DNA from: Lutibacter sp. UBA4458 | Lineage (GTDB): Bacteria; Bacteroidota; Bacteroidia; Flavobacteriales; Flavobacteriaceae | Direction: 5' to 3' | Length of the DNA: 12,280 nucleotides | Assembly (NCBI GenBank): GCA_002390165.1 | Contig: DGOU01000144.1 | Span: forward strand, 17,683-29,962 | In this document: positions 1,814-12,280 of the stretch, one piece after another | Layout of the letters: the number at the start of each line of letters is the position of its first letter | How positions within the stretch are numbered: the first letter of the stretch is position 1 | Translations under genes and position numbers: made by a program | Notes under the pieces: model-generated | The model's input: the letters and a program-made list of their open reading frames with translations, nothing else | Database searches by the model: none | Told to the model about the DNA's origin: nothing

Positions 1814-3031
1814 TTATCGTCTCCTATTTGCCAGTAAAGGTGGAGGTTCTCCATTAAAAGAATTCCATCGGCTAATACTTTTTGCACCAATGCCTGAAGC
1901 CCTAATAACCGCTCTGTCTCCATAACGTTCACGCATTTTATCCATTGCTTGATATAAGTTTATTATTTTATCATTGTCTTCAAATAAATTAATTTGATGC
2001 CCACCACTTACCAAATGGCTAAATTTAACACCAATTAACCGCACTAATAATCTACGTTGGTATAATGTTTTGTACAAGTCCATTACAATTGGTAAAATAG
2101 AATGATCTGAAGAACTATATGAAATCCGTTTTTGCTTAGTATACGTTTGAAAATCAGAATACCGAATTTTAAACGTAATACAAGCGGTTAATTTATCGCC
2201 TCTCCGTAATTGGAAAATTAAATTTTCGGTCATTGCTACAATAATACTTTTCAGTTTTGTAATATCAGTTGTGTCTTTATCAAATGTTCGTTCTGTTGAA
2301 ATGGATTTTCGTTCATGGTATTTTATAACTGGTGTGTTATCAATTCCGTTAGCTTTTTTCCAAATAATGCTACCAGACTTTCCAAAAACTTTAGACATCA
2401 TATTAACTGGCATTTCTTGTACCGTTTTTATCTGCTTAATACCTAAATCACATAAAGTATTGTATGTTTTTTCACCTACCATTGGTATTTTACGAACCGA
2501 TAAGGGAGCAAGAAAAAACTTTTCTGTACCTACATTTACTTTTATTTCGTTGTTAGGTTTAGCTTCGCCAGTGGCTATTTTTGAAACCGTTTTATTTGCT
2601 GATAACCCAAATGAAATAGGCAAACCCGTTTCTCTAATAATTTTAGTTCGCAATTCTGAAGCCAATTGATGGCACCCAAAAAATTGATCCATTCCTGTTA
2701 AATCAATATAAAACTCATCAATAGATGATTTTTCATATAAAGGAACGGCATCCTTTATAACATCCGTTACTAGCTTAGAATATTTGGTATAAATTCCACT
2801 ATTGCCACGTAACACAATAGCTTCTGGACAAAGTTGTTTTGCCATACGCATAGGCATTGCAGAATGTACACCATATTTGCGAGCTTCGTAACTACAACTG
2901 GCAACAACACCTCTATCGGATGTACCACCAATTAAAACAGGTTTTTTTTCTAATCTGCTATCAAGTAGACGTTCACACGATACAAAAAAGGTATCTAAAT
3001 CCATATGTACAATGCTTCGTTCTAAACTCAT
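1814..3031 (-). CDS. dinB: Y-family translesion DNA polymerase (DNA polymerase IV type)
   Basis: A 405-aa Y-family polymerase for copying past DNA lesions. Motif I is MDLDTFFVSCE (10-20), with metal-binding D11 and probable steric gate F16. The palm motif is SSIDEFYID (102-110), with D105 and E106, so all catalytic carboxylates are present. GLSANKTVSKIA (142-153) is the conserved finger/palm segment, a helix-hairpin-helix follows at about 180-200 (KIPMVGEKTYNTL), and the little-finger domain at about 240-345. QINLF at 346-350 is a textbook beta-clamp binding motif. The C-terminus ends in a Pro/Arg-rich tail (GEPPPLLANRRR) that I associate with the Bacteroidota branch. Its ATG overlaps the stop of the upstream dnaE-type gene (ATGA, 3028-3031), implying translational coupling. 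Unlike ImuB of proteobacterial mutasomes, it is not catalytically dead. Confidence 0.95.
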   Translation of the reverse strand: MSLERSIVHMDLDTFFVSCERLLDSRLEKKPVLIGGTSDRGVVASCSYEARKYGVHSAMPMRMAKQLCPEAIVLRGNSGIYTKYSKLVTDVIKDAVPLYEKSSIDEFYIDLTGMDQFFGCHQLASELRTKIIRETGLPISFGLSANKTVSKIATGEAKPNNEIKVNVGTEKFFLAPLSVRKIPMVGEKTYNTLCDLGIKQIKTVQEMPVNMMSKVFGKSGSIIWKKANGIDNTPVIKYHERKSISTERTFDKDTTDITKLKSIIVAMTENLIFQLRRGDKLTACITFKIRYSDFQTYTKQKRISYSSSDHSILPIVMDLYKTLYQRRLLVRLIGVKFSHLVSGGHQINLFEDNDKIINLYQAMDKMRERYGDRAVIRASGIGAKSISRWNSFNGEPPPLLANRRR

Positions 3032-5997
3032 ACATATTCTTTTTTAAAATTATCTGTATATCTTGAATCTTGAATTATTGCTTGTTTTTCAAAAGTTATC
3101 ACTTCAATACTTATGCAATCAAATTCTTCTACAACCTTGCCTTTTATTTTATATACTCCTCGTCCTTTAATAGGATATTTTTTTACAGTTGGCGGAAAAT
3201 GTACCGTATCTATATGATCTCCTTTTTTATCTACAAAAGTTCCAAAATACATTAATTCACCTTTTGAAGTACTGGTTCTTTTTGCCGTTACATAATAGCC
3301 ATATACCGTAACAACTTTTCCAATAAAGTTTGTAAAATCTTTTGCTGCTATCTTTTGTTTAATAGGTTGGGTTAATAAATTAAAAGGATTGCATAATGGA
3401 AATCCTAAATACTGAATTTCATCAAAAGCATCTTCAAAGTTATCACAACTTAAAGTGGGGGTGTTATACACTACTTTTTCTGATTTAAAAAGCGTAACAA
3501 TGTGTTCTTCTTGTGGTACTTTATTTACTTTCATATAAGCTTCCCATAGCAACTCTCGCTTATTTCTTCCTGTAAATTTAAAAGCGTTTATTTTTATTAA
3601 AATAGCCAGTTGTTCTAATGAAATAGAAACACGCTCTATAAAATCATCTAAATCTAAAAAAGGACCATTTTTTTTACGTACTTCTACAATTTTTGAGGCA
3701 TTTTTAACTTCAAAACTTTCTAACATCATAAAACCTAAATAAATATTATTTTCTTCAATATAATTTTGATAATAGGATTTATTAATGGTTGGCGGATGAA
3801 TAACAGCTCCGTTCATTCTAGCATCGTGTACATAATATTCTGGACGATAAAAACCACCAAAATTATTGAGTGTTGCTACTAAATATTCTAACGGATAATA
3901 GGCTTTTAAAAACAAACTTTGATAGCTTTCAACCGCATACGATGCTGAATGCCCTTTGGCAAAAGCATATCCGGCAAAACTTTCAATTTGTCGCCAAATT
4001 TCAGAGGTTAAAGTATACGCATGACCTTTTGCTTTGCAATTATTAAAAAACTGATTTTTAACTTTTAAAAATTCTTCACGCGATCTAAATTTTCCACTCA
4101 TACCACGCCGTAACATATCGGCTTCTCCTAAATTTAATCCTCCAAAATAATGTGCCACTTTTATAACATCTTCCTGATATACCATAACGCCGTAAGTTTC
4201 TGGCATAATTTCTAATAATATTGGATGCGCATCTTTTCTGCGTTTAGGATTTCGATATCTTTTTATATATTCACGCATCATACCTGATTTTGAAACGCCT
4301 GGCCTAATAACAGAGCTGGCGGCAACCAATCCTAAATAATTATCTACTTGTAATTTTTTTAATAACATTCGCATTGCTGGCGATTCTACATAAAAACAAC
4401 CTATTGCTTTTGCGTTTCTTAATAAATATTTAATTTTTTCATCTTCTTTAAAACGCTTAATATCATGAATGTCAATTGCTGAATGCGTTGGATGGTTATA
4501 TTTTACTATATCTACTGCTTCGCGTATTTTTCCTAAACCACGCTGACTTAAAATATCAAATTTGTATAATCCAATATCTTCGGCAATTACCATATCAAAC
4601 ATAGCTGTAGAAAACCCTTTTGGAGGTAAATATGTTGCCGTATAATAATCTATAGGTTTCTCTGAAATTAAAATTCCACCAGGATGAATACCCAAATAAT
4701 TTGGAAACCCCTGAATGTATTTACTATAAATTAGCACTAATTTTGATAAATTATCTAATTGATTAGGATTAAAATTATTGGTTGTTAGCTTGTCTATTTC
4801 ATCTTTTGGCAACCCAAATACTTTACCTAATTCTCTAACGGAAGCTTTGTATTTAAAGGTATTATAAACTGCAATTAAAGAAGTGTTTTTAAATCTTTTG
4901 AAAATAAAAGTCATAATATCATCTCTATCTCTCCACGAAAAATCCAAATCAAAATCGGGCGGATTAGTACGATATAGGTTTATAAACCGCTCAAAATACA
5001 AATCTAGTTCAATAGGGTCAACATCTGTAATTCGTAACAAATATGCAACAATACTATTGGCTCCACTTCCTCTACCAACATAGTAATATCCCATACTTCT
5101 GGCATATTTTAAGATTTTCCAATTAATTAAAAAGTACGATACAAATTGCTTTTCTTTTATAATTGCAAGCTCTTTTTCTAATCTGGTAAACACGCGTTCT
5201 CCTAGTTTTTTATAACGATAATCTAAACCGCTATACGCTAATTTTCGAAGTAATTTAAAATCTAATATTTCATTATTACTATATGTCTTTTGATTTTTAG
5301 GAATTCCTTTTTTAATATCAAATTTAATAGTACAAGCGGCTATTAACTTTTGAGTATTTTTAATAATTTGAGGATATTCTGCATATATTTCTTTTAAGAT
5401 ATCTTCAGAAATCATAATATCACTTTCCTTTCCTTGTTCCGATTTTGGTAATTTACTTAACAACGTATTATTATCGATAGCTCGTAATAATCGGTGGGTA
5501 TTAAATCCTTTTTTATGTTGAAATGAAACTGGTTGCAAAATCACTAATTTATCTTGTTGAAATCGCCATTCAGAAAATTTTAAGTGATTTAAATCCGATG
5601 GTTTAACGCCTATAAATTCATTTTTATTCAGTTTAAATACTTCATTTTTAAAAGGATAAATAACAAATGTATTTGAAAGTTGCCTTGCTGTTTTTGGAAC
5701 AGAAAACTTATCTAAATGTAATAATTCAGATAAATAATTATTAATCTGCTGGTAGCCTTTATTGTTTTTTGCTATAATAATAAATTGCTGTTTTACTCCA
5801 TTTCTAAAATCTACTCCAAGCACTGGTTTTACAGCATATTTAGTTGCTAAACGCACAAAATCTAGATTTGCTGAAGTACTATTTATATCTGTTAAACAAA
5901 GTGTTGAAATTTTAAGTTTAGAAGCCAAAAACAACAATTCCTCTGGCTTTATGGTGCCATATCGTAAACTAAAATATGTATGCGTGTTTAAATACAT
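3028..5997 (-). CDS. dnaE2: Error-prone-type DNA polymerase III alpha subunit (short DnaE, DnaE2-like)
   Basis: A C-family polymerase of 989 aa, shorter than replicative DnaE (about 1150 aa or more). Order: degenerate PHP domain (about 1-100), palm with GRGSGANSIVAYLL (308-321) and PDFDLDF (347-353; catalytic D350 and D352), third catalytic Asp in KFDIL (D481), fingers with YQEDVIKVAHYFGG and LGEADMLRRGM, FAGYAFAKGHSASYA (674-688), helix-hairpin-helix (about 760-815), and a C-terminal OB fold (about 890-970). Where the PHP metal site normally has HxH, this protein has NTH (4-6), and the usual TDH is TDI (36-38), so metal-dependent proofreading is unlikely. A degenerate clamp motif, IVTLF (833-837), lacks the Gln. 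It is coupled to the dinB-type gene by a 4-nt overlap and divergent from the S24 regulator. The symbol reflects similarity to error-prone DnaE2; biochemical fidelity is inferred. Confidence 0.92.
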   Translation of the reverse strand: MYLNTHTYFSLRYGTIKPEELLFLASKLKISTLCLTDINSTSANLDFVRLATKYAVKPVLGVDFRNGVKQQFIIIAKNNKGYQQINNYLSELLHLDKFSVPKTARQLSNTFVIYPFKNEVFKLNKNEFIGVKPSDLNHLKFSEWRFQQDKLVILQPVSFQHKKGFNTHRLLRAIDNNTLLSKLPKSEQGKESDIMISEDILKEIYAEYPQIIKNTQKLIAACTIKFDIKKGIPKNQKTYSNNEILDFKLLRKLAYSGLDYRYKKLGERVFTRLEKELAIIKEKQFVSYFLINWKILKYARSMGYYYVGRGSGANSIVAYLLRITDVDPIELDLYFERFINLYRTNPPDFDLDFSWRDRDDIMTFIFKRFKNTSLIAVYNTFKYKASVRELGKVFGLPKDEIDKLTTNNFNPNQLDNLSKLVLIYSKYIQGFPNYLGIHPGGILISEKPIDYYTATYLPPKGFSTAMFDMVIAEDIGLYKFDILSQRGLGKIREAVDIVKYNHPTHSAIDIHDIKRFKEDEKIKYLLRNAKAIGCFYVESPAMRMLLKKLQVDNYLGLVAASSVIRPGVSKSGMMREYIKRYRNPKRRKDAHPILLEIMPETYGVMVYQEDVIKVAHYFGGLNLGEADMLRRGMSGKFRSREEFLKVKNQFFNNCKAKGHAYTLTSEIWRQIESFAGYAFAKGHSASYAVESYQSLFLKAYYPLEYLVATLNNFGGFYRPEYYVHDARMNGAVIHPPTINKSYYQNYIEENNIYLGFMMLESFEVKNASKIVEVRKKNGPFLDLDDFIERVSISLEQLAILIKINAFKFTGRNKRELLWEAYMKVNKVPQEEHIVTLFKSEKVVYNTPTLSCDNFEDAFDEIQYLGFPLCNPFNLLTQPIKQKIAAKDFTNFIGKVVTVYGYYVTAKRTSTSKGELMYFGTFVDKKGDHIDTVHFPPTVKKYPIKGRGVYKIKGKVVEEFDCISIEVITFEKQAIIQDSRYTDNFKKEYV

Positions 5998-6081
5998 TAT
6001 TTGTTAAAATATTAGGTAGCTCGTTATTTTTTGCTAAATTAGCTTATTATTTGAGCATTTGTTGCTCATAAAATTAGCATT
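5998..6081. promoter_or_regulatory. Divergent control region between dnaE2-like and S24-regulator genes, with candidate operators
   Basis: This 84-bp gap must hold the promoters of both arms of the damage module. Two inverted repeats are visible. One is TGAGCA-N5-TGCTCA (6052-6068, perfect 6-bp arms) and the other is GCTAA-A-TTAGC (6033-6043). There is also an imperfect direct repeat: TTGCTAAATTAGC at 6031-6043 and TTGCTCATAAAATTAGC at 6062-6078. A near-consensus -7 element for the rightward gene, TATTATTTG (6045-6053, one base too long between TA and TTTG), overlaps the start of the 6-5-6 palindrome. A repressor bound there would block RNA polymerase. I could not identify a convincing leftward promoter. 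That the S24 protein binds here is inferred from position and symmetry. Confidence 0.55.
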
Positions 6082-6855
6082 ATGAATTTTTTACCCAATA
6101 ATATTAAACATATTAGAACCTTAAAAGGCTTAACCCAAGAGCAATTTGCAGAAGATTTAAATGTATCTCGCTCAAGAATAAGCTCTTATGAAGAGAATAG
6201 AGCAATTCCTCCAATAGATTTTTTAGTGCAACTTTCAGATTATTTTACAATTCCGATTGATGTTTTAATTAAAAACGATTTATCTAAAACAAATAATAGT
6301 TCGTTTATTGAAATTGGAAATAAAAGAGTATTATTTCCTATAACTATTGATGGTGCTAACGAAGATTTAATTGAAATTATTCCTGTTGAAGCTTCCGCAG
6401 GTTATTTAAGAGGTTACGCCGACCCTGAATATATAGAACATTTAAACAAAATAAAATTACCATTTTTACCTGTAGGAACACACAGAGCGTTTCCTATTAA
6501 AGGAGATTCTATGATTCCTGTAAAAAGTGGTTCGTACATTGTAGCACGTTTTATTGAAAATGTACAAGATATAAAAGATGGTAAAACCTATATTATACTC
6601 ACTTTAAATGATGGAATAGTATATAAACGTGTATATAAAGAACTAGAAGAACACAACATGTTACTTTTAGTTTCTGATAATAAAAAGTATGACCCGTATT
6701 ATGTAAAAGAAGAGGAAGTGTTAGAATTGTGGGAATTTACCTGTAGTATTAACACTCAGGAATATGAAGAACATGAACTAAAAATAAGTAGTATTGCAAC
6801 TATGCTTACACAATTAGGAGTAGAATTAAAGGAATTAGAAAAAACCTATAAATAG
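6082..6855 (+). CDS. LexA/cI-like repressor: HTH (XRE) plus S24 self-cleaving peptidase
   Basis: A 257-aa regulator. Residues 6-62 form an XRE/cI-type helix-turn-helix (IRTLKGLTQEQFAEDLNVSR, then SRISSYEENRAIPP) rather than the winged helix of classical LexA. The C-terminal half is an S24 peptidase with a potential Ala-Gly cleavage site A106-G107 (VEASAGY), nucleophile S143 in FPIKGDSMIP, and general-base K182 in GIVYKRVY. Spacing from cleavage site to Ser (37) and Ser to Lys (39) is close to LexA, so RecA-stimulated self-cleavage is plausible. A tail of about 35 residues (222-257) beyond the peptidase fold ends in a helical, possibly coiled-coil stretch. It is divergent from the dnaE2-dinB pair and overlaps the next gene by 1 nt. 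Functionally it is the likely LexA equivalent for this module; orthology to LexA is not claimed. Confidence 0.9.
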   Translation: MNFLPNNIKHIRTLKGLTQEQFAEDLNVSRSRISSYEENRAIPPIDFLVQLSDYFTIPIDVLIKNDLSKTNNSSFIEIGNKRVLFPITIDGANEDLIEIIPVEASAGYLRGYADPEYIEHLNKIKLPFLPVGTHRAFPIKGDSMIPVKSGSYIVARFIENVQDIKDGKTYIILTLNDGIVYKRVYKELEEHNMLLLVSDNKKYDPYYVKEEEVLELWEFTCSINTQEYEEHELKISSIATMLTQLGVELKELEKTYK

Positions 6856-8264
6856 TGTATTCCATAATTGATATAGAAACTACCGGACACAGTAACAAAA
6901 TTACTGAAATTTCCATTTTTGTTTTTGATGGAGAAAAAGTGATTGATGAATACACCACTCTTGTTAATCCAGAAGGTACAATACCGCCATTTATTACCAA
7001 TTTAACAGGTATTACAAATGCTATGGTAGCCAATGCACCTAAGTTTTATGAAATAGCAAAAAAAGTAAATGAAATTACAAAAGACACCGTTTTTGTAGCT
7101 CATAATGTAAATTTTGATTACAACATTATTCGACAAGAATTTAAAGATTTAGGGTTTGATTTTAAACGAAAAAAACTATGCACCATTCGCTTGTCTAGAA
7201 AATTAATTCCAGGATTAAAATCGTATAGTTTAGGAGCGCTTTGCTCTACCCAAAACATAGTTATTAAAGATAGACACCGAGCTAAAGGAGATGCCCAAGC
7301 TACCACCATTTTATTTGAAAAATTGTTGCGTTTAGATACTAATCAAACGGTGTTTAATTCCTTTTTAAATCCTCGATCAAGACAAGCAATTTTACCTCCT
7401 TTATTAGCAAAAGAAGTTGTAGATAATCTTTCGGAAAAAACAGGAGTTTACTATTTTAAAAACAATAAAGATGAAATTATTTATGTTGGAAAAGCTAATA
7501 ACATTAAACAACGAGTACTAAGTCATTTTTATGATAAAACAAAAAAAGAAATTAGTATGTGCCTGGAAACAAGCAACATAACTTTTACTGAAACAGGTAG
7601 TGAACTAGTTGCTTTATTAATGGAATCTTCTGAAATTAAAAAAATATTTCCAAAATATAACAGAGCACAAAGACGAGCACAGGAAAGTATAGGATTGTTT
7701 AGTTATGAAGACAGAGAAGGCATTATCCACTTAGCATATAATCGACTAAAATTAATTTCAAAACCTCTGATGAAATTTTACAATGAGACTGAGTGTAGAG
7801 TTTTTTTAGAAAAATTATGCGAACAATTTGAATTATGCCCAAAATATTGTCATTTACAATCTAATGTTGCAACTTGTTTTCACTATCAAATAAAGCAATG
7901 CAAAGGCATTTGTAGAAATGAAGAAGATGCCATCACTTATAATCAAAGGGTTCAACAAGCAATTCAGTCTGTTCAATTTAACACCAATAACTTTGTAATA
8001 AAAGAAACAGGAAGAACCAATAAGGAATACTCCTTTGCTTTAGTTTTAAATGGAATTTATAAAGGTTATGGTTTTATCAGCAAACGTAAAAAAATAAAAA
8101 CCACAGAAGATTATTTAAAAGCTATAATAGCTCAAAAAGATAATAATGATATTAAACGAATTTTGCGCTCGTATCTTAAAAAAAAGGTAGATACCATAGA
8201 AACATTAAGCGATTATACTCCTGAATTAAATTCATTTGAATTATGTGCTATCAAACAAAAATAA
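6855..8264 (+). CDS. DnaQ-like 3'-5' exonuclease fused to GIY-YIG/UvrC-like (Cho-type) endonuclease
   Basis: A 469-aa two-nuclease fusion. Residues 1-165 are a DEDDh exonuclease: D6 and E8 in IIDIETTG, D88 in AHNVNFDY, and H141 with D146 in HRAKGDA. Residues about 193-275 are a GIY-YIG domain: GVYYF (197-201), IYVGKANNIKQRV (209-221, catalytic-type R220), and MESSEIKKIFPKYN (256-269), equivalent to the UvrC 'E..lIK...P.YN' segment. A Cys-containing part (CPKYC 328-332, CFHYQIKQCKGIC 341-353) resembles the UvrC/Cho region after the nuclease. No UvrC C-terminal RNase H-like or tandem HhH domain is present, so it resembles E. coli Cho joined to DnaQ; similar fusions are known in actinobacteria. 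The GTG start overlaps the previous stop (TAGTG). It is the only usable start, because the frame has a stop 4-6 nt upstream and the catalytic D is residue 6. Confidence 0.9.
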   Translation: MYSIIDIETTGHSNKITEISIFVFDGEKVIDEYTTLVNPEGTIPPFITNLTGITNAMVANAPKFYEIAKKVNEITKDTVFVAHNVNFDYNIIRQEFKDLGFDFKRKKLCTIRLSRKLIPGLKSYSLGALCSTQNIVIKDRHRAKGDAQATTILFEKLLRLDTNQTVFNSFLNPRSRQAILPPLLAKEVVDNLSEKTGVYYFKNNKDEIIYVGKANNIKQRVLSHFYDKTKKEISMCLETSNITFTETGSELVALLMESSEIKKIFPKYNRAQRRAQESIGLFSYEDREGIIHLAYNRLKLISKPLMKFYNETECRVFLEKLCEQFELCPKYCHLQSNVATCFHYQIKQCKGICRNEEDAITYNQRVQQAIQSVQFNTNNFVIKETGRTNKEYSFALVLNGIYKGYGFISKRKKIKTTEDYLKAIIAQKDNNDIKRILRSYLKKKVDTIETLSDYTPELNSFELCAIKQK

Positions 8265-8887
8265 CAAAGCAAAAAGAAGAAATTAAGCAACGTTTCAACG
8301 CAGATGTAGGTGAATTAAATTTCTTTGAACTCAAAGAGTTTTGTAGTGCATTTGACTATCCCAAAACACCGGTTATTACAAATAGTTCACCAAATAATAT
8401 TCAGTTATTTAATTGGGGGTTAATACCTTCTTGGTCTGAAGATGTCGCTATTAGAAATTACACCTTAAATGCCAGAGTAGAAACTCTATCCGAAAAAAAA
8501 TCGTTTAAAGATGTAATGCAAAACAGATGTTTAATAATTGCAAATGGATTTTATGAATGGAAATGGTTGACCAAAAGTGGCTCTAAAAAGCAAAAATATT
8601 TAATTACCTTACCTAATGAAGAATTGTTTGCTTTTGCAGGCATTTATACGGAATGGACAGACTTTAATAACGAAAAAACAAACTCATACACTATAATAAC
8701 TACACAAGCTAATCCATTAATGTGTAAAATTCATAATACCAAACAAAGAATGCCAATAATTCTAAAAAAAGAAGATGAAACTTTTTGGCTACAAGGTAAA
8801 AACTACACTGATTTTGCTTTTCCGTACAGCACAGAACTTTTTGCAACGTTGTTGGATAAAAATAATGAGCAATTTGAGCTTTTTTAA
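8243..8887 (+). CDS. yedK: SRAP family protein (SOS response-associated peptidase, YedK/HMCES-like)
   Basis: A 214-aa SRAP protein. Family members cross-link to abasic sites in single-stranded DNA through the amino-terminal Cys, protecting them from cleavage and error-prone bypass. All key residues are visible: C2 (exposed after Met removal), N76 and R78 in TLNARVET, E105 in NGFYEWKW, and H164 with R169 in IHNTKQRMP. Spacing is close to E. coli YedK (C2, N75, E105, H160). The start is fixed at 8243 because Cys must be the second residue, which means the gene overlaps the preceding nuclease gene by 22 nt in another frame. The overlap strongly suggests translational coupling with the DnaQ-GIY-YIG protein and placement in the S24 regulator's operon. 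The symbol is by family; Bacteroidota genomes can carry several SRAP paralogues. Confidence 0.93.
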   Translation: MCYQTKITKQKEEIKQRFNADVGELNFFELKEFCSAFDYPKTPVITNSSPNNIQLFNWGLIPSWSEDVAIRNYTLNARVETLSEKKSFKDVMQNRCLIIANGFYEWKWLTKSGSKKQKYLITLPNEELFAFAGIYTEWTDFNNEKTNSYTIITTQANPLMCKIHNTKQRMPIILKKEDETFWLQGKNYTDFAFPYSTELFATLLDKNNEQFELF

Positions 8888-9740: not shown

Positions 9741-10556
9741 ATGAATTTAAACGGTAATTTAATTCAAAATAACAAGCAAATATTTAATAACTTAAATAGA
9801 GCATTTAAATATGGTGATGCTTTATTTGAAACTATTAAAGTAGCGGATTTAAAAGTTATTTTTTTAGAAGATCATTATTTTAGATTAATGGCATCTATGC
9901 GAATGTTGCGCATGGAAATACCAATGAATTTTTCTTTGGATTTTTTTCAAGAAGAAATTATTAAAACGGTTACCGAATCAAATTTTCAAAATGCAAGGGT
10001 AAGAGTTACGGTTTTTAGAAATGATGGAGGACTTTATTTGCCTGAAGATAATAAAGTTAATTTTTTGATTGAAGTTAGTGAGCTAAAATTAGGTTCAAAA
10101 CAAAATTATGAAATAGATGTTTTTAAGGATTATTTTATTTATTCCGGATTGTTATCTACAATTAAAACTACCAATAAATTAACTAATGTATTGGCAAGTA
10201 TTTATGCCTCTGAAAACGGATTTGATAATTGTATTTTGTTAAATGAAAAAAAGAATGTTGTAGAAACTTTAAATGGAAATATATTTTTAGTTAATAATAA
10301 TACTTTAAAAACACCTCCAATTTCTGAAGGCTGTATAAAAGGGATTGTTAGAAAAAAAATTATTGAAATTGTAAACAAAAGCGATAAATTTAATTTGGAG
10401 GAAACTCAAATTTCACCGTTTGATTTGCTAAAGGCCGACGAAATATTTATTACCAATGCTATTATTGGAATTCAATCGGTCACAAAATATAAAAAGAAAG
10501 CCTTTAATAAAGAGGTTGCTAAGGAATTAGCAGAAGAACTACAAAAACTAGTTTAA
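9741..10556 (+). CDS. Class IV (fold type IV) PLP aminotransferase/lyase, aminodeoxychorismate lyase-like
   Basis: A 271-aa fold-type IV PLP enzyme. Visible: NRAFKYGDALFETIKV (19-34), the standard N-terminal signature; HYFRLMASM (45-53); PLP-Schiff-base lysine K142 in STIKTTNKL; E175 in VVETLNGNIF (binds the pyridine N); and cofactor-phosphate loop candidates FITNAIIGIQSV (236-247). The Lys-Glu spacing (33) equals that of E. coli PabC, and the length (271 aa) is also PabC-like rather than IlvE-like (about 300 aa or more). PabC makes p-aminobenzoate for folate; related members act on branched-chain or D-amino acids, and the sequence alone does not decide. No pabA/pabB is adjacent. The stop codon region overlaps that of the convergent yqgE gene by 9 bp. 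Confidence 0.85.
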   Translation: MNLNGNLIQNNKQIFNNLNRAFKYGDALFETIKVADLKVIFLEDHYFRLMASMRMLRMEIPMNFSLDFFQEEIIKTVTESNFQNARVRVTVFRNDGGLYLPEDNKVNFLIEVSELKLGSKQNYEIDVFKDYFIYSGLLSTIKTTNKLTNVLASIYASENGFDNCILLNEKKNVVETLNGNIFLVNNNTLKTPPISEGCIKGIVRKKIIEIVNKSDKFNLEETQISPFDLLKADEIFITNAIIGIQSVTKYKKKAFNKEVAKELAEELQKLV

Positions 10557-11105
10557 AGATGGGTTTTTAGGTGCATTTGCCCAAATTTGATAATCACCAC
10601 CTAATTTTAAAATTTGATTTTTCCAAATATCCTTACTTTCTAATCCTAATAAATCAGGATATTTATTGTCAACCACAACCCAGTTAGATTCAGATAATTC
10701 TTCTTTTAATTGATTTTCAGTCCATCCAGAGTATCCTAAGAAAAAACGAATGTCCGACTGGTCAACTTTGCGGTTGTTTAATAAGTTAGTTAGCGTCTTA
10801 AAATCCCCTCCCCAAAATATACCATTAGAAATTTCAATGCTATTTGGAATTAAATCAGGAATTTTATGAATAAAGTATAAGTTTTCTGGTTCTACAGGGC
10901 CACCGCTAAAAATTTTAAAGTCGCAGTCTATATCAGGAATTAAATCTTTTAATACAAATTCAGTTTTTTTATTAATAATAAAGCCAACACTTCCATCTAT
11001 ATTGTCTTCCGTTAAATATATAACAGACCTATTAAAAGACCTGTCATTTAAAATGGATGGTTCAGAGATTAATAATTTACCTTTTAAAAGATTTTTTACT
11101 GACAT
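10548..11105 (-). CDS. yqgE: YqgE/AlgH family protein (UPF0301)
   Basis: A 185-aa protein, usual length for the family (about 185-190). Family signatures run in order: KGKLLISEPSI near 8-18, FNRSVIYLTE (24-33), GSVGFIINKKT (38-48), FSGGPVEPENLYFIH (66-80), FWGGDF (97-102), FFLGYSGWTENQL (121-133) and WVVVDN. The fold is known from structures but the biochemical role is not settled; 'AlgH' comes from an alginate-regulation phenotype in Pseudomonas. It is transcribed from just left of the HU terminator, probably from its own promoter at about 11110-11150, where TATATTTA is a near match to the -7 consensus. Its 3' end overlaps the aminotransferase gene tail by 9 bp, and no separate terminator was seen. 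Confidence 0.95.
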   Translation of the reverse strand: MSVKNLLKGKLLISEPSILNDRSFNRSVIYLTEDNIDGSVGFIINKKTEFVLKDLIPDIDCDFKIFSGGPVEPENLYFIHKIPDLIPNSIEISNGIFWGGDFKTLTNLLNNRKVDQSDIRFFLGYSGWTENQLKEELSESNWVVVDNKYPDLLGLESKDIWKNQILKLGGDYQIWANAPKNPSLN

Positions 11106-11148
11106 TTATCATAAACATTTCTTTAAATATATAAAATTTATAATAAAT

Positions 11149-11178
11149 AAAAAAACTCTCTTTAAAAAAGAGAGTTTG
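11149..11178 (-). terminator. Intrinsic terminator of the HU gene
   Basis: Leftward reading: a perfect 10-bp stem AACTCTCTTT/AAAGAGAGTT (11154-11163 and 11167-11176) with a 3-nt loop, leading into a T-run (11149-11155). It lies about 26 nt after the HU stop codon and isolates HU from yqgE. Confidence 0.9.
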
Positions 11179-11203
11179 AATAATTTAAAAAAAATCTTTA
11201 AAA

Positions 11204-11476
11204 CTAGTTTACAGCATCGCTAAAACCAGCTCCAGCTTTAAATTTCACTACGTTTTTAGCTTTAATTTGAATTGTAGCTCCTGTTTGAGGATTTCTACCA
11301 GTTCTTGCAGCTCTATTAGATACTGACCAAGTTCCCCATCCAACTAAAGCAACTTTTCCACCTTTTTTTAAAGTTTTTGTTACATTGTCAGTTAATGATT
11401 CTAATGCTGATTTTGCAGCTGCTTTTGTGATGCCAGCATCTGCTGCCATAGCATCAATTAAATCTGATTTGTTCAT
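11204..11476 (-). CDS. HU-family histone-like DNA-binding protein
   Basis: A 90-aa protein, exactly HU/IHF subunit size. It has an N-terminal helical dimerisation part (MNKSDLIDAMAADAGITK, then AAAKSALESLTDNVTKTLKKGG), the saddle strands KVALVGWGTWSV (41-52), and the flexible DNA-binding arm with GRNPQTG (60-66), where P63 is the intercalating proline. VVKFKAGAGF closes the family pattern. The usual 'GFGtF' is WGTW here, a conservative aromatic change. It bends and compacts DNA as a dimer in the nucleoid. It is monocistronic, with a strong promoter upstream and a strong terminator downstream, consistent with high expression. A heterodimer partner is not visible in the window. Confidence 0.96.
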   Translation of the reverse strand: MNKSDLIDAMAADAGITKAAAKSALESLTDNVTKTLKKGGKVALVGWGTWSVSNRAARTGRNPQTGATIQIKAKNVVKFKAGAGFSDAVN

Positions 11477-11530
11477 AATTTAAATGTTAAATTTATTTAG
11501 GTTAAACATATTTTGCTTTTAAAAGCTTAA

Positions 11531-11560
11531 CAAAGTTATACGGAATAAGGGCTTGTGCAA
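11531..11560 (-). promoter_or_regulatory. Bacteroidota-type promoter of the HU gene
   Basis: On the minus strand TAACTTTG (11531-11538) matches TAnnTTTG, with TTG at 11558-11560 as the -33 element 19 bp upstream. The predicted start is near 11524, giving a 5' leader of about 50 nt. The leader is AT-rich with no Shine-Dalgarno sequence (TTTAAATT before ATG). Confidence 0.8.
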
Positions 11561-11632
11561 GTTTTTGGTATAAAAACTAACCTTTTTGTTAATAAATGAG
11601 GGTAAATGTTAATAAACTTGTGTTTATAATTC

Positions 11633-11666
11633 AAAAAATACGGCTAGCCCTATAAAATAATGGGCT
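11633..11666 (-). terminator. Weak candidate terminator after fmt
   Basis: Leftward, a 5-bp G/C-rich stem AGCCC/GGGCT (11662-11666 and 11646-11650) includes the last base of the fmt stop codon. Six T follow at 11633-11638, but only after a gap of 7 nt. The gap and short stem make this a weak call. Confidence 0.35.
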
Positions 11667-12280
11667 TACAGCATTTTAGCATCCGATAAAAAACTATAGC
11701 CGTTTAATAAACTTTTAGTATCCATTTTTCTTTTGCCAGCCAACTGTAAACTTTTTATTTTTAACAAGCCATTGTCCACTGCAATTTTAATTTCATTTTT
11801 GCTAGAAATCATTTTCCCAATAGTATAAGAATGATTTACTACTTCTTTTTCAACATCAAATATTTTAACTTTAATTTTATCTTCTCCATTTAAAAGAAAA
11901 CTCCAAGCTGCAGGATATGGGTTTAGTCCTCTAATTAAATTATAGATTTCATTTAATGGCTTGCTCCAATCTATTTTACAAGTTTCTGTATAAATTTTAG
12001 GAGCGGATTTACTTTCTAAATCTTTTTGAGGAAATGTTTTAATATTGTTCTCCGAAATTAGTTGCGCTGTTTTTACAACAAGTTTACTGCCTATTTGTAA
12101 TAATTCATCGTGTAATTCGCCAACATTTGTATTTTCCGTAATAGCTACTTTTTCTTGCAAAATAATAGAGCCAGTATCAATTTTTTCATCAATAAAAAAT
12201 GTGGTAACTCCAGTTTTATTTTCTCCATTAATAATTGCCCAGTTTATAGGGGCAGCACCTCTGTAATTTGGTAATAATGA
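11666..12280 (-). CDS. fmt: Methionyl-tRNA formyltransferase, N-terminal third outside the window
   Basis: The frame is open to the right edge, giving the last 204 residues of an enzyme normally about 310-320 aa. It formylates Met on initiator tRNA using 10-formyl-THF. The visible part begins in the catalytic domain with SLLPNYRGAAPINWAI (the conserved SLLP.yRGaaPi segment just after the catalytic Asn/His), then TGVTTFFIDEKIDTGSII, whose Asp in IDTG matches catalytic D144 of E. coli. The C-terminal OB-like tRNA-binding domain follows, with IDWSKPLNEIYNLIRGLNPY, PAAWSF and LQLAGKRKM. A TTG near 12160 is internal, not the start. Downstream lies the HU gene with its own promoter, so fmt is probably the last gene of its transcript. 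Confidence 0.96.
   Translation of the reverse strand, partial: SLLPNYRGAAPINWAIINGENKTGVTTFFIDEKIDTGSIILQEKVAITENTNVGELHDELLQIGSKLVVKTAQLISENNIKTFPQKDLESKSAPKIYTETCKIDWSKPLNEIYNLIRGLNPYPAAWSFLLNGEDKIKVKIFDVEKEVVNHSYTIGKMISSKNEIKIAVDNGLLKIKSLQLAGKRKMDTKSLLNGYSFLSDAKML

Follow-up and report, generated by a model that had tools for sequence, protein, structure and literature searches.

What governs a set of DNA-damage genes that diverge from one short control region, and do the two arms of such a locus belong to one regulated unit? We addressed this question for a locus within a 12,280-nucleotide stretch of DNA from Lutibacter sp. UBA4458 (hereafter the window), in which genes for a Y-family polymerase (PolY, labelled dinB) and the error-prone polymerase DnaE2 face genes for an S24 repressor, a two-domain nuclease and an SRAP protein (Table 1). 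Our data suggest that the locus is probably a small self-regulated SOS-type module in which a single S24 repressor acts on both arms. Open reading frame (ORF) calls and Pfam matches bore out the layout proposed in a sequence-only reading of the window, with all five genes intact, neighbouring ORFs overlapping by 4, 1 and 22 nt, and an 84-bp divergent gap. The source genome is a metagenome-assembled genome (MAG) of 2.47 Mb in 263 contigs, 69.9% complete, and the nearest named relatives of the locus are mostly Lutibacter (Flavobacteriaceae), as are the named organisms among the best protein matches.

The control region contains two operator-like sites, derived by comparing promoters, with the consensus GCT-n-A/C-N5-T/G-n-AGC. 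A pair at exactly 22 bp scored at least 13/16 in 80 of 94 loci, and other spacings between 15 and 33 bp did so in 0 to 9 loci; near relatives are among the 94 loci, as is at least one probable duplicate (L050/L218, both on contigs of 71,387 bases), and the consensus was derived from the same loci in which it was counted. Among the Lutibacter-type named loci (n = 27), the pair scored 16 in 19 and 14 or 15 in eight. In 64 of the 88 loci with a pair, 3 nt separate the end of the second site from the S24 start, the same distance as that to the S24 ATG in the window. The -7 consensus of Bacteroidota promoters is TAnnTTTG. A -7-like box stands by site 1, on the polymerase side, exactly in 37/88 loci and with at least 5/6 bases in 70/88 (background 1.7%), and a -7-like box for the S24 arm lies inside site 2 exactly in 36/88 (background 0.27%). 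Our first guess at an operator, GAGCA-N5-TGCTC, was rejected; it has four exact sites in the genome, three of them inside ORFs, and corresponds to the inner half-sites of the final pair.

Table 1. Features of the divergent locus, in window coordinates.
Feature	Coordinates	Strand	Basis
PolY gene (labelled dinB)	1814..3031	(-)	ORF call; Pfam IMS/IMS_C; residue conservation
dnaE2, C-family error-prone polymerase	3028..5997	(-)	ORF call; Pfam Pol III alpha NTPase, finger, PHP
Divergent control region, 84 bp	5998..6081		Gap between ORF calls
Operator-like site 1, GCTTA-TTATT-TGAGC; abuts a 5/6-match -7 box (polymerase arm)	6042..6056		Promoter comparison
Operator-like site 2, GCTCA-TAAAA-TTAGC; starts 22 bp after site 1	6064..6078		Promoter comparison
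S24 repressor gene	6082..6855	(+)	ORF call; Pfam HTH_3 + Peptidase_S24; Ala106-Gly107, Ser143, Lys182
DEDDh exonuclease/Cho/UvrC-N-type GIY-YIG fusion	6855..8264	(+), GTG start	Pfam RNase_T + GIY-YIG
SRAP, abasic-site crosslinking family; Cys2 at start	8243..8887	(+)	Pfam SRAP

The predicted repressor combines a CI-like helix-turn-helix (HTH; matches to HTH_3 and HTH_19) with Peptidase_S24 and matched no LexA DNA-binding model, and all six of its PDB matches are confined to the HTH region. Throughout, we take the following residues to be catalytic: the S24 dyad, D11/D105/E106 of PolY, the aspartates of DnaE2, the DEDDh residues, and the Tyr/Tyr/Arg/Glu of GIY-YIG. The Ser and Lys of the dyad are present in 50 of 51 aligned proteins, with one gap, in a set that includes the 75-amino-acid (aa) HTH-only protein of locus L185; at the cleavage site, Gly occupies its column in 51/51, next to Ala in 48, Met in two and a gap in one. 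By these features the protein is of the "non-canonical LexA" kind of Bacteroidetes. An SOS response was believed to be missing from Bacteroidetes until 2021, when S24-type repressors were described whose predicted regulons include dinB-dnaE, a GIY-YIG exonuclease and SRAP; one such regulator binds a dyad-N5-dyad site, and its own gene and a divergent error-prone polymerase gene are induced by mitomycin (PMC8565304). The sequence of the promoter of S24 itself carries a dyad-N5-dyad site in the window, and the site motif relaxes the CTAA-N5-TTAG known from the literature. In a tree built without the reference proteins of PMC8565304, the clade of the window S24 is split (support 1.0) from a clade in which 5/6 promoters carry GGA-N5-TCC.

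Loci in which the arms have come apart bear on whether the paired sites belong to the polymerase operon as well. Thirteen named loci lack the polymerase arm; ten of their genomes were searched, six hold dnaE2 elsewhere, and the pair was present at all six polymerase operons (0/200 single-base shuffles each). Four genomes of the family survey have an S24 of the close type and dnaE2 elsewhere (G113, G003, G084 and G013), and the 22-bp pair was found at three of the four polymerase operons, again with 0/200 shuffles each; the operon of G013 has no pair at 22 bp (66/200 shuffles) and carries weak sites 23 bp apart. On this count the double switch is mostly kept at moved polymerase operons (9/10 genomes). 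Among 20 non-adjacent dnaE2 operons, 15 carry GGA-N5-TCC (L190-L204), 14 of these with at least two sites and 13 at a 19-bp spacing, and at two operons (L188 and L189) neither site type is clearly present. Since moved operons carry either the pair or GGA-N5-TCC, it appears that each of two repressor groups has been able to take over the same polymerase operon, a form of repressor swapping. An alternative is that the arms are independent neighbours, with the repressor controlling its own arm only and the polymerases expressed constitutively or under other control. The separability of the arms and the GGA-N5-TCC sites at non-adjacent operons are what one would expect from such independence, but the double site is kept at moved operons in 9/10 close-S24 genomes and site 1 directly adjoins a -7-like box for the polymerases, and we regard this explanation as very unlikely.

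The surroundings of S24 were surveyed in 149 genomes of the family, 65 of which have an S24 match at E 1e-20 and 43 a close orthologue (at least 62%), the latter at 45 loci. There were 72 S24 places in all, 57 of which were taken with wide surroundings, the other 15 being weak or partial matches, and matches below 60 bits were dropped from the neighbourhood counts. The gene arrangement proved non-random: 36 of the 45 close loci face a polymerase gene and 21 precede a nuclease gene, with 13 having the polymerase opposite and the nuclease adjacent (two with a polymerase fragment only), 23 the polymerase only, 8 the nuclease only and 1 neither. The corresponding numbers for 44 named loci (L214-L257) are 14, 17, 10 and 3, contig ends limiting at least L250 and L257. 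Two loci, L050 (in the same-genus sister genome G047) and L218, keep S24, the nuclease, SRAP and both sites; they have no dinB, and their dnaE2 match spans 120 residues. Across whole genomes, dnaE2 (E 1e-220) was found in 78/149 of the family and in 44/296 of a phylum sample, and within the family 37 genomes have both dnaE2 and a close S24, 6 S24 only, 41 dnaE2 only and 65 neither (Fisher p 8e-8, uncorrected for relatedness).

The Y-family gene had been read as an active DinB in the place of ImuB, at a locus with no ImuA. Activity is supported by D11, D105 and E106, all three present in the window protein and unchanged across 53/53 aligned orthologues, and no ImuA-like gene was present among the main window ORFs scanned. 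Equating the protein with Pol IV did not hold up. The canonical Pol IV gene is separate (G000:C169; L126 1469-2563) and scores 451 bits to PRK02406, against 274 bits for the module protein, whose C-terminal tail resembles the RecA N-terminus (RecA-NT) in a profile comparison (27 columns, score 21.3, E 4e-4; best score among 100 column shuffles, 15.7). Judged by this tail, the module "DinB" is a RecA-NT-bearing PolY and not the canonical Pol IV of the genome; these two are the Y-family genes found in the assembled genome (70% complete), in a search that did not use ImuA's own model. PolY also holds a clamp-type motif, QINLF. The catalytic aspartates of its neighbour DnaE2 are intact and conserved in relatives, and two positions that we take to be PHP ligands are replaced, by Asn4 (Asn in 55/55 proteins with a letter there) and Ile38 (Ile in 55, Val in 1; n = 56); with these two positions changed, DnaE2 probably lacks PHP proofreading.

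A Bacteroidetes system of active PolY and DnaE2 was proposed in 2019 (PMC6511836), in a paper that also described the RecA-NT motif of PolY, and was named DnaE2B-PolY-RecA in 2026 (PMC12926913). It could instead be supposed that the two polymerases work separately, PolY in the manner of a Pol IV, with no joint mutasome. Both enzymes keep their active sites, and the literature covered describes no complex of the two; against separate action stand the separate canonical Pol IV, the RecA-NT-like motif, and the persistence of dnaE2 and polY side by side across the family in either order (dnaE2 first, as in the window, or dinB first). We consider it unlikely that the two polymerases work apart.

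On the other arm, nine checked residues of the nuclease (DEDDh and GIY-YIG) are conserved in 22/22 proteins. The SRAP protein resembles PDB 2f20, HMCES and YedK, keeping Cys2, Asn and Glu relative to 2f20, with an ambiguous alignment at the His. The sequence-only reading had these genes as an added processing arm; both are present, but detection of SRAP next to the nuclease was limited to Lutibacter and its close relatives (the window, G047, L215, L216, L218, L229 and L233), and in 6/45 family loci the far side of the polymerases holds a distant SRAP instead. SRAP has been linked with DinB and DnaE paralogues (PMC3765255), and a literature search on GIY-YIG, DnaQ, UvrC and DEDD in Bacteroidetes returned nothing. 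A defence-system reading was set aside: the PADLOC matches are confined to the HTH, to residues 1-172 with the DEDDh domain (E 1.2e-41 to the candidate family PDC-S48) and, weakly, to part of the GIY-YIG domain (E 7.7e-05).

We propose that S24 sits on the two 15-bp operators, 22 bp or about two helical turns apart, and would thereby block both promoters, including its own. Upon DNA damage, RecA bound to single-stranded DNA would trigger self-cleavage of S24 at Ala106-Gly107 and release both arms. The left arm would supply a RecA-tethered mutasome, in which PolY may contact RecA by means of its RecA-NT tail and the clamp by means of QINLF, and would act together with a DnaE2 that has an apparently dead PHP proofreading site. 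From the right arm would come an abasic-site shield and an enzyme with 3'-5' exonuclease and Cho-like incision activities, which may cooperate with the polymerases; this arm would also yield fresh repressor and thereby return the switch to its closed state.

Parts of the locus have also moved between hosts. Brumimicrobium, of the family Crocinitomicaceae, has a Polaribacter-type three-gene unit at three loci (L248, L251 and L254). Among the top six matches listed, the Brumimicrobium and Polaribacter-type proteins are 90-94% identical for S24, 89-92% for dinB and 82-84% for dnaE2, and the RecA cores of the two genera are 81-84% identical; for B. mesophilum and Polaribacter sp. IC066 the values are 93.3%, 91.6% and 83.9%, with 82.4% for RecA. 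DNA similarity between L248 and P. filamentus, within 16.7 kb, is limited to 3782-8761, the three genes. These comparisons indicate that the dnaE2-dinB/S24 unit has been transferred between two families. More distant relatives occur on plasmids: five Bacteroidota records (two larger than 1 Mb) encode a dnaE2 that is 45-49% identical, and a Desulfosarcina plasmid one that is 29% identical. Plasmid relatives of the dinB-dnaE pair lie at loci L264, L265 and L272. On a conjugative plasmid of Emticicia, SRAP occurs together with an S24 regulator gene that faces dinB-dnaE, a Chryseobacterium plasmid has a regulator facing dinB-dnaE, and an Adhaeribacter plasmid has SRAP-dinB-dnaE. Among the papers listed on dinB/dnaE2, repressors and conjugative plasmids in Bacteroidetes, none treats the module, judged by titles and the opening parts of abstracts.

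Mobility of this kind, the plasmid relatives and the CI-like HTH could also fit the remnant of a prophage or integrative element whose CI repressor captured repair genes. The flanks of the locus look like ordinary chromosome, however, with an AlgH-like protein, an HU protein and a partial methionyl-tRNA formyltransferase at 10548-12280 of the window, and relatives of S24 were found in just 2 of 50,697 phage records (E 1e-10), at 30-32% identity. We regard an origin of this kind as very improbable.

Several observations weigh against a self-contained module under one repressor. The nuclease gene is non-adjacent in 24/45 family loci and the polymerase arm in 9/45; with arms missing at many family loci, the five-gene set is not required. 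The expectation that the arms co-occur stood at the level of genomes, where dnaE2 accompanies S24 in 37/43 close-S24 genomes vs 41/106 others, but the arms themselves are separable, and given this outcome the module idea survives in weakened form. The S24-side -7 box in the window is unrecognisable, at 1/6 bases, and the plasmid copies of Emticicia and Chryseobacterium showed none of the tested sites that we could recognise. The RecA-NT match of PolY has a modest probability (34.8%). Outside the locus, the motif exceeds a reversed control by 19 vs 8 in the own genome and by 25 vs 12 in the sister genome G047, and one intergenic own-genome site (L137 2766-2780) is followed by the frame of a DNA/RNA non-specific endonuclease, a possible further target; this frame seems incomplete at its start, its match beginning mid-profile. 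Strict site scanning misses weak sites, and recA was not found in the assembled own genome; as this MAG is 70% complete, members of the regulon can be missing.

These last points would be expected if S24 were the global SOS regulator of the organism, the locus one target among many, and its self-contained appearance an artefact of a strict scan and an incomplete genome. The published relatives control larger regulons (PMC8565304), a recJ-like gene of G047 lies 394 bp downstream of a site that itself falls within an ORF, and a single 7-of-8 site occurs at 6/30 recA promoters of relatives, e.g. GCTATAATTTGTAGC in G003. Such single sites were, however, matched by 4-19/100 shuffles, and the 22-bp pair was absent from recA in 30/30 relatives (best score 11/16). 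The 19 strict sites of the own genome comprise two in the module, 15 inside ORFs and two intergenic; two of the in-ORF sites are followed within 200 bp by genes for an aminotransferase and an HlyD-type protein, and an intergenic site lies 166 bp before a 64-aa ORF without a Pfam family. The 25 strict sites of G047, which is 99% complete, comprise two in the module, 19 inside ORFs and four intergenic, and the genes at most 300 bp downstream of the others encode a transposase, a symporter-domain protein, ribosomal S18, HypD and one family-less protein. Global control of this sort seems to us rather unlikely, and the regulon of the module is, from these scans, probably narrow.

A second form of the repressor appears where the Lutibacter locus is split. 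In five Lutibacter loci (L266-L270) the moved polymerase operon faces a 72-aa, HTH-only paralogue of S24, encoded from about position 4532 in the dnaE2-minus orientation, and in G113 (L185, 9483-9710, reversed orientation) the paralogue has 75 aa. This mini-repressor lacks the protease domain, the tandem sites are present at these loci, and its gene is followed by SRAP, which in L268 matches in short pieces only. A homologue search admitting lengths of 40-126 aa returned 28 proteins, 20 of exactly 72 aa; the alignment leaves out 7/28, all of other lengths. The ratio of nonsynonymous to synonymous substitution (dN/dS) is 0.10-0.34 in 12 of 15 pairs, three being saturated, with dS high (0.57-2.99) in the 12 computable pairs, values that indicate purifying selection. 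The stretch VSRSRISSYE is invariant across 22 aligned mini-proteins and the window S24, but L. citreus has VTRGRICAYE and G113 VTRSRISSYE. In a Urechidicola MAG (L271) the start codon of the mini-repressor is lost, and no copy was found in the assembled part of the window genome or in G047, with one S24 match each.

The mini-repressor mostly keeps the recognition helix of S24. A further proposal, which we put forward tentatively and as possible rather than probable, is that the locus is an autonomous, transferable mini-SOS, a mutagenesis and repair cassette with a damage-cleavable repressor and double operator of its own, controlling essentially itself and able to enter new hosts; in split Lutibacter loci the mini-repressor, presumably uncleavable, would be made on induction from the same operators and act as a brake on mutagenesis despite active RecA. 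A literature search on truncated or non-cleavable LexA with negative feedback returned nothing. If true, a locus-bound mobile SOS cassette would make damage-induced mutagenesis acquirable as a plug-in, apart from the global regulator of the host, and a mini-repressor without a protease could set the duration of mutagenesis in Lutibacter. The 37-bp double operator, the two-polymerase mutasome and the Lutibacter mini-repressor offer testable objects.

The module had been called under-described, yet its parts are largely published (PMC6511836, PMC12926913, PMC8565304), and the earlier interpretation as a whole, partly supported here, was right in part and mostly in print. With DnaE2B-PolY-RecA (PolY2 and DnaE2, Cellulophaga algicola type) the locus shares adjacent dnaE2 and a catalytically intact RecA-NT Y-polymerase, with no ImuA/ImuB at the locus; those papers, in the text available, treat the polymerases, whereas the double operator, the nuclease/SRAP arm and the transfer of the unit are features of the module. 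The CTAA-N5-TTAG group of non-canonical LexA shares the CI-like HTH with S24, the dyad-N5-dyad site in its own promoter, the divergent error-prone polymerase, a GIY-YIG exonuclease and SRAP in predicted regulons, and at least two sites per promoter at several genes (PMC8565304); the module differs in its relaxed site, GCTnA-N5-TnAGC, paired at 22 bp, in having no pair at recA and in an apparently narrow regulon. The imuA-imuB-dnaE2 cassette likewise places DnaE2 with a Y-family partner under a repressor, but the module has no ImuA at the locus (no RecA-like family in the main window ORFs scanned), and its Y-family partner is active. In UmuDAb-umuDC of Acinetobacter, too, a non-LexA regulator of UmuD type represses error-prone polymerase genes together with a divergent gene (PMC7273328), with Pol V and another repressor family, and dnaE2 in Myxococcus is under XRE-type control (PMC12288472). 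As far as the literature covered extends, five things are new: the double site at a fixed spacing, its retention at most relocated operons, a regulon that is probably narrow, the transfer of the core unit and the mini-repressor.

One of the transferred copies carries a local repeat. In Brumimicrobium glaciale (L254), the 3' end of S24 and the bases that follow it (8654-8871) are repeated at 11451-11673, about 2.8 kb downstream, and the two copies of the repeat enclose a gene pair that we take to be AbiE-like.

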